DNA of 64,000 nt from Archaeoglobaceae archaeon (GTDB taxonomy: Archaea > Halobacteriota > Archaeoglobi > Archaeoglobales > Archaeoglobaceae), in NCBI GenBank assembly GCA_026986375.1, contig JALSOQ010000013.1, positions 62,001 to 126,000 of the forward strand, in the 5' to 3' direction. Under the pieces are notes generated by a model. It made no database searches and was not told where the DNA came from. It was given only the letters and a program-made list of their open reading frames with translations. The position numbers and the translations under genes were made by a program. Shown here in pieces: positions 26,621-47,923 of the stretch. Numbering within the stretch: position 1 is the stretch's first letter; every line of letters begins with the position of its first letter.

Positions 26621-26755
26621 TGGGGCCGGTGGGATTTGAACCCACGACCAGCGGGTCTCTTCGGTCAGAGCTCCAACGGGTCATCACACCTCAGCAGACC
26701 CATTGCTCATCACACCGCTGGAGCCCGCCGCGCTACCTGGCTACGCCACGACCCC
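26621..26755 (-). tRNA. tRNA-Trp (anticodon CCA) with a 61-nt intron
   Basis: The exons are 26718-26755 (38 nt) and 26621-26656 (36 nt). The acceptor GGGGTCG pairs with CGGCCCC (one G-T pair) and the discriminator is A. After splicing, the anticodon stem GCGGG/CCCGC encloses CTCCAGA, which reads CCA (Trp). The T-arm contains GTTCAAATC. The intron lies after position 37, the canonical archaeal site, and is expected to be removed by the bulge-helix-bulge endonuclease. Confidence 0.93.
26657..26717 (-). ncRNA. Box C/D guide RNA inside the tRNA-Trp intron
   Basis: On the minus strand the intron reads C box GTGATGA, D' CTGA, C' GTGATGA and D CTGA in order. The guide before D (TTGGAGCT) pairs with GCTCCA of the pre-tRNA, and its fifth base pairs with C34. 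The guide before D' (GGGTCTG) pairs with CAGACCC, and its fifth base pairs with position 39. This is the known self-guiding arrangement of euryarchaeal tRNA-Trp. Residue 39 is C here, where haloarchaea have U. Confidence 0.9.
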
Positions 26756-36243: not shown

Positions 36244-36716
36244 AGATCTTAGAAGGTGTCGTGGAAGTTCGGTCCGTAAAGGACTTTTTGAACAACTTTA
36301 AGGATTGTGTAGCGGTCTTCTTAGATGCGAATTACGTCGTAGATAGAGGACACGTTGAATTTGCCTTAAAAAAAGCTTTGAAAGCTTGGAGGGAAGGAAG
36401 GAGAGTTGCTAAAACGCTCTCGATGGAAATACTGTTATACTGCGCGGGAAGAAGGCAGATCTCCGATGCGGTAGAAGTGGGACTGAAGGAGGGGAGAAAC
36501 GAAGTTGTCGTGGTTTTGGAGGAAGAATGCTTAGAAAAACTTAGGAGGTTGGGTTTTGAGGAAAGGCCGGTTCTGAAATTGGACGATGCCAAGATTGAAA
36601 GGATCAAAAAATTCTTCGACATAAGCGACGAGGAGTTGAGGATAGCCGGAGTAGAAAAGTTGTCCTTACTTGTGAGGGAGAGAATAGCCCTGTTCGACGT
36701 TTTCAAGTCATCATAG
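36240..36716 (+). CDS. cgi121: KEOPS complex subunit Cgi121
   Basis: Cgi121 binds the Bud32 kinase and the tRNA 3' end within KEOPS, which makes t6A at position 37 of ANN-decoding tRNAs. The 158-residue protein has the family pattern VFLDANYVVDRGHVEFALKK, TLSMEILLYCAGRRQISDAV, and a C-terminal domain rich in charged helices. No other KEOPS gene is in the window. The last 6 bp overlap the convergent Cas4-like gene. Confidence 0.85.
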   Translation: MKILEGVVEVRSVKDFLNNFKDCVAVFLDANYVVDRGHVEFALKKALKAWREGRRVAKTLSMEILLYCAGRRQISDAVEVGLKEGRNEVVVVLEEECLEKLRRLGFEERPVLKLDDAKIERIKKFFDISDEELRIAGVEKLSLLVRERIALFDVFKSS

Positions 36717-37364
36717 GAACTTAGAAGCGAATGTAGATGGTTTGGAATCGCAAACTTCTCTGTATTCGCACTTTTCACACGCCTTACTTTCCCTCTTTTC
36801 TGGAAAGAAACCCTTCTTCAGCATCAAAACTCTCTCCACAAGCTTTAGGACGTAGTATTTTTCTCTCCTACCAACCTCGACACTTCTCACGTTTCCGTCG
36901 AAGCAGTGATAAACGAAACCTCTGTCGCATTCCAAACCCCTCGATTTTAAAAGCATGCAGAACGCGGTAACCCTTATCCTATCCTTGAACCAAACCCCTT
37001 CTGTAGGACTCCTCAAAGATAGAACGAGGGGATACTTCCTGTCTCTAAATTCGACTAGTTCGTCTAAAATTCCCTTCAGCTTTATTCTCTCGCATGCGAG
37101 CCTAACTTCCCAGTCGATAGGTTTTAGTAGTTGGAGGGACGAATCGAAGACGAACTTTTCCTTCGCCTTCCCGAAAACTTCCGAATTGCCGAACATCTGG
37201 GTGAACCTCTCGAAAGCCCAACCCTCGTCAAAACCCTTTCTCCTGCTCAAGTATAACTCCCTGACGGCATGCAGTTCGTTCGGTTTGATCCTGTCCCTCA
37301 TCCTGAAGTAGCACAGTCGGGGACAGATGACGAAGGAGGAAATCTCGCCGACGTTTGCGAACAT
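36711..37364 (-). CDS. Cas4/RecB-like protein with degenerate nuclease site
   Basis: The 217-residue protein has the Cas4 (DUF83) layout: VGEISSFVICPRLCYFRMRD at the N-terminus and a C-terminal cysteine cluster CEKCEYREVC that should hold an Fe-S cluster with an upstream Cys. The PD-(D/E)XK core is eroded: KGILDELVE keeps the Asp, but the following strand reads LVLSLRSPTEG where the family has ExK. It is probably inactive as a nuclease. It is divergent from an apparently intact Cas4-like gene 36 bp away. Confidence 0.75.
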   Translation of the reverse strand: MFANVGEISSFVICPRLCYFRMRDRIKPNELHAVRELYLSRRKGFDEGWAFERFTQMFGNSEVFGKAKEKFVFDSSLQLLKPIDWEVRLACERIKLKGILDELVEFRDRKYPLVLSLRSPTEGVWFKDRIRVTAFCMLLKSRGLECDRGFVYHCFDGNVRSVEVGRREKYYVLKLVERVLMLKKGFFPEKRESKACEKCEYREVCDSKPSTFASKFL

Positions 37365-37400: not shown

Positions 37401-37967
37401 GTGATCACCGAAATAGTAATTTCGTGGCGTTTGAGAGAGCTCGAAAAGCACGAAAAGAACGGAATTTGGGTTACCGATTTAATAAGATGTCCGCTGAAGA
37501 GGGAGTTTGAGGAGAGGTATCCCGAGCTCCACAAGGCTACAGTATTCACTCCGAGCACGATTTTGGGTTCCCTCGTCCACTTAGGTTTGGAGAGTCTCCT
37601 TTCATCCGAACTGAACGCCGAGGTGGAAGTGAGAAGGGAAAAGCTGATTGGAGATTACAAGATAGTCGGTAGAATAGACGCGATAATAGGGAGGGTTGGA
37701 GTTGAGATAAAGAGTTCGAGGGCGGACATAGAGATACCATACGAGCATCACGTTCTTCAGGCGAGAATATACAACTGGCTTTACGACTTGGAGAAGACAG
37801 TTTTGGTATACGTCACACCCGATAGATTCGCGGAATTTCCGATAGAGGACAGAGCAAGCGAGGACGAAATATTAAAGCTGATAGTCGATAAAAAGGCACC
37901 GAAATACGACTGGGAGTGCAGATACTGCCATTTCTCCGTCATATGCCCGAACAAAAAGAGGAGATAA
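37401..37967 (+). CDS. Cas4-like PD-(D/E)XK nuclease with Fe-S cysteines
   Basis: The 188-residue protein has WVTDLIRCPLKREFEERYPE (first Cys), GRIDAIIGRVGVEIKSSRAD (Asp and ExK of the nuclease site), HVLQARIYNW (QxxxY motif) and the C-terminal cluster CRYCHFSVICPNK. These are the catalytic and Fe-S residues of Cas4/Dna2-type exonucleases. No CRISPR array or other cas gene is in the window, so a solo Cas4-like repair role is likely. It starts with GTG. A C/D sRNA lies on the opposite strand just after its stop. Confidence 0.8.
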   Translation: MITEIVISWRLRELEKHEKNGIWVTDLIRCPLKREFEERYPELHKATVFTPSTILGSLVHLGLESLLSSELNAEVEVRREKLIGDYKIVGRIDAIIGRVGVEIKSSRADIEIPYEHHVLQARIYNWLYDLEKTVLVYVTPDRFAEFPIEDRASEDEILKLIVDKKAPKYDWECRYCHFSVICPNKKRR

Positions 37968-38023
37968 CCTCAGATTGGCGGCTTTTCATCACACCTCAGA
38001 GACCCCTCCAATCCTCATCGGCT
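37967..38023 (-). ncRNA. Box C/D sRNA (cluster member 3)
   Basis: On the minus strand: C-like box CGATGA (38015-38020), D' CTGA (37996-37999), C' GTGATGA (37986-37992), D CTGA (37970-37973). The D guide AAAGCCGCCAAT can pair with AUUGGCGG, a segment typical of archaeal 16S rRNA near E. coli position 920. A TATA-like CTTAAAATA (38044-38052) lies about 26 bp upstream of the expected 5' end, so it has its own promoter. Confidence 0.8.
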
Positions 38024-38043
38024 ATGGAAAGTTAATTTATACA

Positions 38044-38052
38044 TATTTTAAG
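38044..38052 (-). promoter_or_regulatory. TATA-like box of C/D sRNA 3
   Basis: CTTAAAATA on the minus strand, about 26 bp before the 5' end expected for the sRNA whose C box is at 38015-38020. Confidence 0.5.
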
Positions 38053-38056
38053 CCTA

Positions 38057-38113
38057 TCGTCAGAATTCTCGCGCGTCCTCATCACCGTTCGGGAGGGGAG
38101 TGAATCATCACCC
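38057..38113 (-). ncRNA. Box C/D sRNA (cluster member 2)
   Basis: On the minus strand: C GTGATGA (38105-38111), a variant D' CCGA, C' GTGATGA (38079-38085), D CTGA (38060-38063). The guide before D' (TTCACTCCCCTC) is complementary over 12 nt to GAGGGGAGUGAA, a conserved 23S rRNA segment of domain I, predicting methylation of the fifth base, a G. Only 3 nt separate its C box from the D box of member 1, so both probably come from one precursor. Confidence 0.82.
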
Positions 38114-38169
38114 ATCAGTTTAGGGCACGCTCCTCACGACGGCTCAGACCCCGTAGGCCTCATCACCCT
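38114..38169 (-). ncRNA. Box C/D sRNA (cluster member 1)
   Basis: On the minus strand: C GTGATGA (38160-38166), D' CTGA (38144-38147), a weak C' TGAGGA (within 38131-38139), D CTGA (38115-38118). Guides are GGCCTACGGGGT before D' and GCGTGCCCTAAA before D; I did not identify their targets. It is the first RNA after a TATA-like box centred near 38192. Confidence 0.78.
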
Positions 38170-38187
38170 AAGGAAGTTCGGCAATCG

Positions 38188-38195
38188 TTTTATAA
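38188..38195. promoter_or_regulatory. TATA box between the sRNA cluster and the plus-strand gene
   Basis: TTTTATAA, with palindromic core TTATAA, is about 24 bp before the ATG at 38216 (plus) and about 24 bp before the expected 5' end of C/D sRNA 1 (minus). It can serve both directions. Confidence 0.5.
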
Positions 38196-38215
38196 CTGTA
38201 ATCGTTGGGTTTTTG

Positions 38216-47867: not shown

Positions 47868-47923
47868 ACCTCAGAACCGTGGAGGATCATCACCCTTCAG
47901 CATGTGCAAACCTCATCATCGGC
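47868..47923 (-). ncRNA. Box C/D sRNA upstream of dys
   Basis: On the minus strand: C ATGATGA (47913-47919), guide GGTTTGCACATG, D' CTGA (47897-47900), C' GTGATGA (47887-47893), guide TCCTCCACGGTT, D CTGA (47871-47874). The 49-nt box-to-box length equals that of the cluster at 38 kb. ATTAAAAT at 47946-47953 (ATTTTAAT on the minus strand) lies about 25 bp upstream of the expected 5' end. Targets were not identified. Confidence 0.82.

Follow-up and report, generated by a model that had tools for sequence, protein, structure and literature searches.

Three putative box C/D sRNA genes, hereafter sRNAs A, B and C, lie in a short intergenic gap of a member of the Archaeoglobaceae, a heat-loving archaeon. 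Based on the comparisons described below, we read the locus, with a probability of about 0.9, as three ordinary archaeal box C/D sRNAs predicted to guide 2′-O-methylation of the 23S rRNA, A and B being co-transcribed and C forming a separate unit. Coordinates given without a contig name refer to the window, i.e. the whole stretch of 64,000 nucleotides that was analysed.

The gap between the flanking ORFs (37968–38215) measures 248 bp and carries on its minus strand, head to tail, three sets of boxes in the order C–D′–C′–D. The original prediction had described three such ordered sets of 51–52 nt on this strand in a gap of about 250 bp, the first two being 3 nt apart, and its coordinates, lengths, strand and spacing proved correct. 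Guides are named below by sRNA and box (e.g. A-D′). The features are as follows:

37401–37967, plus strand: neighbouring gene of a PD-(D/E)XK/Cas4-like nuclease, which converges on sRNA C and has its stop codon 2 nt past the D box of the latter.
38020–37970, minus strand: sRNA C, 51 nt, or 49 nt with the alternative C box; C box CGATGA (38020–38015) or ATGAGGA (38018–38012), D′ CTGA (37999–37996), C′ GTGATGA (37992–37986), D CTGA (37973–37970); D′ guide TTGGAGGGGTCT, D guide AAAGCCGCCAAT.
38051–38044, minus strand: TTAAAATA, a possible TATA box for sRNA C, preceding the C box of that gene by about 27 nt.
38111–38060, minus strand: sRNA B, 52 nt, recognised by box pattern, conservation and 23S pairing; C GTGATGA (38111–38105), D′ CCGA (38092–38089), C′ ATGAGGA (38082–38076) or alternatively GTGATGA (38085–38079), D CTGA (38063–38060); D′ guide TTCACTCCCCTC, D guide CGCGCGAGAATT.
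38114–38112, minus strand: A–B linker, TGG, the 3 nt that separate the D box of A from the C box of B.
38166–38115, minus strand: sRNA A, 52 nt, recognised by box pattern and conserved in six genomes; C GTGATGA (38166–38160), D′ CTGA (38147–38144), C′ GTGAGGA (38137–38131), D CTGA (38118–38115); D′ guide GGCCTACGGGGT, D guide GCGTGCCCTAAA.
38195–38188, minus strand: TATA box TTATAAAA (TTTTATAA on the plus strand), some 25 nt ahead of the C box of sRNA A.
From 38216, plus strand: divergent gene on the opposite flank, without Pfam match.

Relatives carry ATGATGA at the position of ATGAGGA (38018–38012), which favours this C box, and hence a length of 49 nt, for sRNA C. Single-base departures from the box consensus are found in D′ of B (CCGA) and in C′ of A (GTGAGGA). 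The single sRNA units are of ordinary folding stability (z from −1.5 to +0.6), which is normal for C/D sRNAs. Within sRNA C, GATTGG in the C-D′ guide region is complementary to CCAATC in the C-D guide, the stretch lying partly inside boxes. Beyond the gap, a pair of Cas4/PD-(D/E)XK-like nuclease genes stands side by side in divergent orientation (36714–37364, minus strand, and 37401–37967, plus strand), adjoined by a Cgi121 (KEOPS) gene and a KaiC-like gene.

The locus was compared among four genomes of the same genus (G000–G003) and two of the genus g12 (G015 and G042). The whole A–B pair is retained in the former four and, at another place on the chromosome, in the latter two. The space between B and C has widened to about 150–200 nt in G001–G003, A, B and C themselves being retained. 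sRNA C was found in the genera g1, g12, g2 and g11: in g12 it follows a tRNA-Ser gene at a distance of about 3 nt and, in G015, has kept its end at the nuclease gene; g2 and g11 encode an RNA with the C-D guide at other loci, its D′ guide being close to TTACTCCCGCC and, in the two g2 genomes tested, fitting the 23S rRNA near E. coli position 1904. Constant boxes and guides in mobile surroundings are, as judged from these genomes, the behaviour expected of guide RNA genes.

The TATA box at 38195–38188, which the original prediction had overlooked, has the same sequence in each of the four genomes of the genus, and the pattern of a TATA box followed by 21 nt and box C occurs once in the window, with 0 expected. 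A and B are probably co-transcribed from this box; the shared precursor proposed earlier is favoured by the presence of a single conserved TATA box, ahead of A, by the shortness of the linker (3 nt) and by the occurrence of the pair together in six genomes. Read on the plus strand, the same palindrome (38188–38195) precedes the ATG of the divergent gene (38216) by about 25 nt, and it may serve as a shared bidirectional promoter, with a leaderless mRNA for the plus-strand gene.

For sRNA C, a TATA-like box of its own had been claimed, and TATA-like sequence does exist upstream of it. However, TATAAATT (38041–38034), presumably the one meant, is about 17 nt from the C box and thus too close, whereas TTAAAATA is better placed but not conserved, as relatives differ at this position, and in g12 sRNA C stands behind the tRNA-Ser gene; a promoter belonging to sRNA C is therefore uncertain. 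Since it is found behind a tRNA-Ser gene in another genus, sRNA C is, on the evidence of gene order, a unit separate from A–B.

From the observed sequences, their conservation and their pairing with the 23S rRNA, we infer the following course of transcription, processing, RNP assembly and methylation. A–B would be read as one RNA from the TATA box at 38195–38188, and the C/D k-turn and D′/C′ k-loop of each sRNA would bind L7Ae, Nop5 and fibrillarin. RNA outside the assembled RNPs would then be trimmed, separating A from B, and fibrillarin would methylate the ribose 2′-O of the 23S nucleotide whose partner in the guide lies five bases ahead of D or D′. The A–B pair would thereby serve domain I of the 23S rRNA, and sRNA C domain IV.

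At the A–B junction, two RNA ends would have to share the 3 nt between the D and C boxes, which speaks against separate A and B. Alternatively, A–B might stay uncut as one 107-nt four-guide RNA, whose internal k-loop, comparable to D′/C′, would be made up of the D box of A, the linker of 3 nt and the C box of B. Consistent with this possibility, the linker is exactly 3 nt long in six genomes despite differing letters (TGG, ATT, ATT, GTT, TTG and ATT), 3 nt is the usual D′–C′ spacing in single sRNAs of the same genome, and the junction boxes of G042 are decayed (CAGA and GTGAAGA) while its outermost boxes are perfect. Moreover, a second pair with other guides (G000:C16:103005–103109) shows 3-nt linkers with varying letters in G000, G003, G014 and G047:

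L115:104–210 (G000:C16:103003–103109): second tandem pair, also conserved in G003, G014 and G047; in G016 the linker measures 22 nt.

The G016 linker indicates, however, that the halves of such a pair can stand apart, and a constant 3 nt between conserved boxes, seen in few genomes, is weak evidence. In addition, known archaeal C/D RNAs are about 50–60 nt long, and maturation by trimming of long precursors around RNPs is an established route (PMC7994747). We thus consider an uncut A–B RNA unlikely. Equally doubtful is the wider notion that A–B and the second tandem pair are concatenated four-guide C/D RNAs, each assembling into a single extended RNP with the 3-nt junction as the site of an internal k-loop, A–B being aimed at neighbouring domain I sites.

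Turning to the predicted function of A, B and C as individual guide RNAs, targets were searched in the organism's own 23S rRNA with pairing required at D+5 and 300 shuffled guides as control. The A-D′ guide forms 11 bp (one G-U) at C370 (0.037 of the 300 shuffles equal), B-D′ 11 bp at G527/528 (0.017), B-D 10 bp at C426 (0.013) and C-D 11 bp at G2059 (0/300); by alignment, the E. coli equivalents are about 337, 494/495, 394 and 1955, respectively. For B-D′ the target is G527, or G528 if D′ is CCGA rather than CGAA, as suggested by CTGA and CAGA in the relatives. A duplex-energy scan without the D+5 rule agreed for A-D′, B-D′ and C-D, while placing the B-D site below another LSU stretch, the test for B-D being not significant. 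Taken singly the matches are modest except for C-D, yet the assignment is convincing because four of the six guides match together, three of them within 160 nt. The most likely 2′-O-methylation sites predicted in the organism's own 23S rRNA are accordingly C370 (A-D′), G527 or G528 (B-D′), C426 (B-D) and G2059 (C-D). The C-D target site is retained in g12 and g2. In G015, the A-D′ guide fits the 23S rRNA best near E. coli position 1802 and the B-D guide is replaced, indicating that guides drift between genera.

The two remaining guides, A-D (also given as CGTGCCCTAAA in this comparison) and C-D′, showed no convincing target in 16S or 23S rRNA, whether or not D+5 pairing was required and also when ranked by duplex energy; likewise, none was found among 46 tRNA regions or in SRP RNA and RNase P RNA. 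Their best 23S sites (A-D at G2800, 7 bp; C-D′ at C1125, 8 bp) were no better than those of shuffles, and a genome-wide search with C-D′ allowing up to two mismatches gave 14 matches compared to 14 for the control, its own locus being the sole perfect match. The C-D′ guide is letter-identical in six genomes from two genera, and the A-D guide is conserved too.

Whether the three sets of boxes are more than chance was evaluated by a genome-wide pattern search (C, C′ and D boxes with allowed spacings), which yielded 64 matches, A, B and C among them. The reversed pattern, used as control, yielded none in the same 1.46-Mb genome, so the three sRNAs are not chance matches. The motifs are short and some boxes are off consensus (GTGAGGA, CCGA), which could point to a fortuitous run of box-like motifs or to decayed pseudogenes, but the empty control, the conservation in six genomes and the pairing with 23S rRNA make such an origin very improbable. 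All three sRNAs carry C (RUGAUGA), D′, C′ and D (CUGA) in order within about 50–60 nt, and boxes and guides are retained as flanks change. A guide complementary to rRNA across D+5 is seen for A-D′, B-D′, B-D and C-D, and not for A-D and C-D′. They are akin to the archaeal sR families in the order of their boxes (C–D′–C′–D), in having 12-nt guides that follow the D+5 rule on 23S targets, and in their length of about 50 nt. In an Rfam search of the gap, no family was found at or above its gathering score; nearest to sRNA C was sR47 (RF01131; 34.2 bits, E 2e-6, gathering score 40 bits) and nearest to sRNA B was snoPyro_CD (RF00095; 29.1 bits, E 3e-4, gathering score 45 bits). Compared to the named Rfam C/D families, the guides are lineage-specific and the scores below gathering, which marks them as new sequences within the class.

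An RNA-guided DNA-targeting array of the TIGR-Tas kind, which the locus resembles on the surface by its tandem C/D-like boxes flanking paired guides (PMC12045711), is hardly credible and was rejected: the units are of about 52 nt with 12-nt guides and not uniform 36-nt repeats with 9-nt spacers, the guides, conserved from one genus to the other, match 23S rRNA of the organism itself at D+5, and a Pfam scan of the nine neighbouring ORFs detected no Nop domain, i.e. no adjacent Nop-domain Tas gene.

Tight sRNA arrays had been described as uncommon in the original prediction. After removal of overlaps and, on the author's inspection, of non-canonical-looking matches, the 64 matches were reduced to 42 units, and at least 15 of these lie in seven same-strand clusters (gaps of at most 150 nt). 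Clusters of two or three genes also make up a significant fraction of archaeal C/D genes (PMC7994747), and the claim of rarity is therefore not upheld; the cluster is real, yet unexceptional for this genome. Known clustered or dicistronic archaeal C/D genes, including tRNA–sRNA fusions, likewise hold two to three sRNAs in line. Such fusions (e.g. Nanoarchaeum tRNA-Val–sRNA8; PMC3491384) occur, and overlap of C/D genes with ORF ends is frequent (PMC7994747), which is similar to sRNA C following tRNA-Ser in g12 and ending at the 3′ end of an ORF. In contrast to known clusters, sRNA C meets the 3′ end of its ORF neighbour in convergent (antisense) orientation, and the length of the A–B linker is fixed at 3 nt.

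Several further C/D arrangements were observed in the genome. Four C-guide-D units in line with spacers of 8, 11 and 4 nt (L114:144–258; G000:C16:42043–42157) represent another tandem C/D pair. A three-guide chain (C-D-C-D-C-D) with 3-nt spacers (L117:138–212; G000:C10:52987–53061) has a first guide region, ACCGGCTGAGC, nearly complementary to the third, GCTCGCCGGT, so that this RNA may fold on itself. In the window, a solitary box C/D sRNA candidate with the guides GGTTTGCACATG and TCCTCCACGGTT is located at 47871–47921 (minus strand), and a tRNA gene at 26621–26755 (minus strand) has a long intron containing a box C/D sRNA that matches Rfam sR3 (64.9 bits). A C/D sRNA inside a tRNA intron is a known arrangement for archaeal tRNA-Trp.

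Overall, the function and clustering of sRNAs A, B and C are ordinary, whereas their guide sequences are new to the class. The A–B pair offers a natural test of how C/D sRNAs mature when packed only 3 nt apart, and the two conserved guides without target are good material for asking what role orphan guides play. The locus also supplies methylation guides specific to this lineage, with predicted 23S sites, for an archaeal family that has been poorly sampled.
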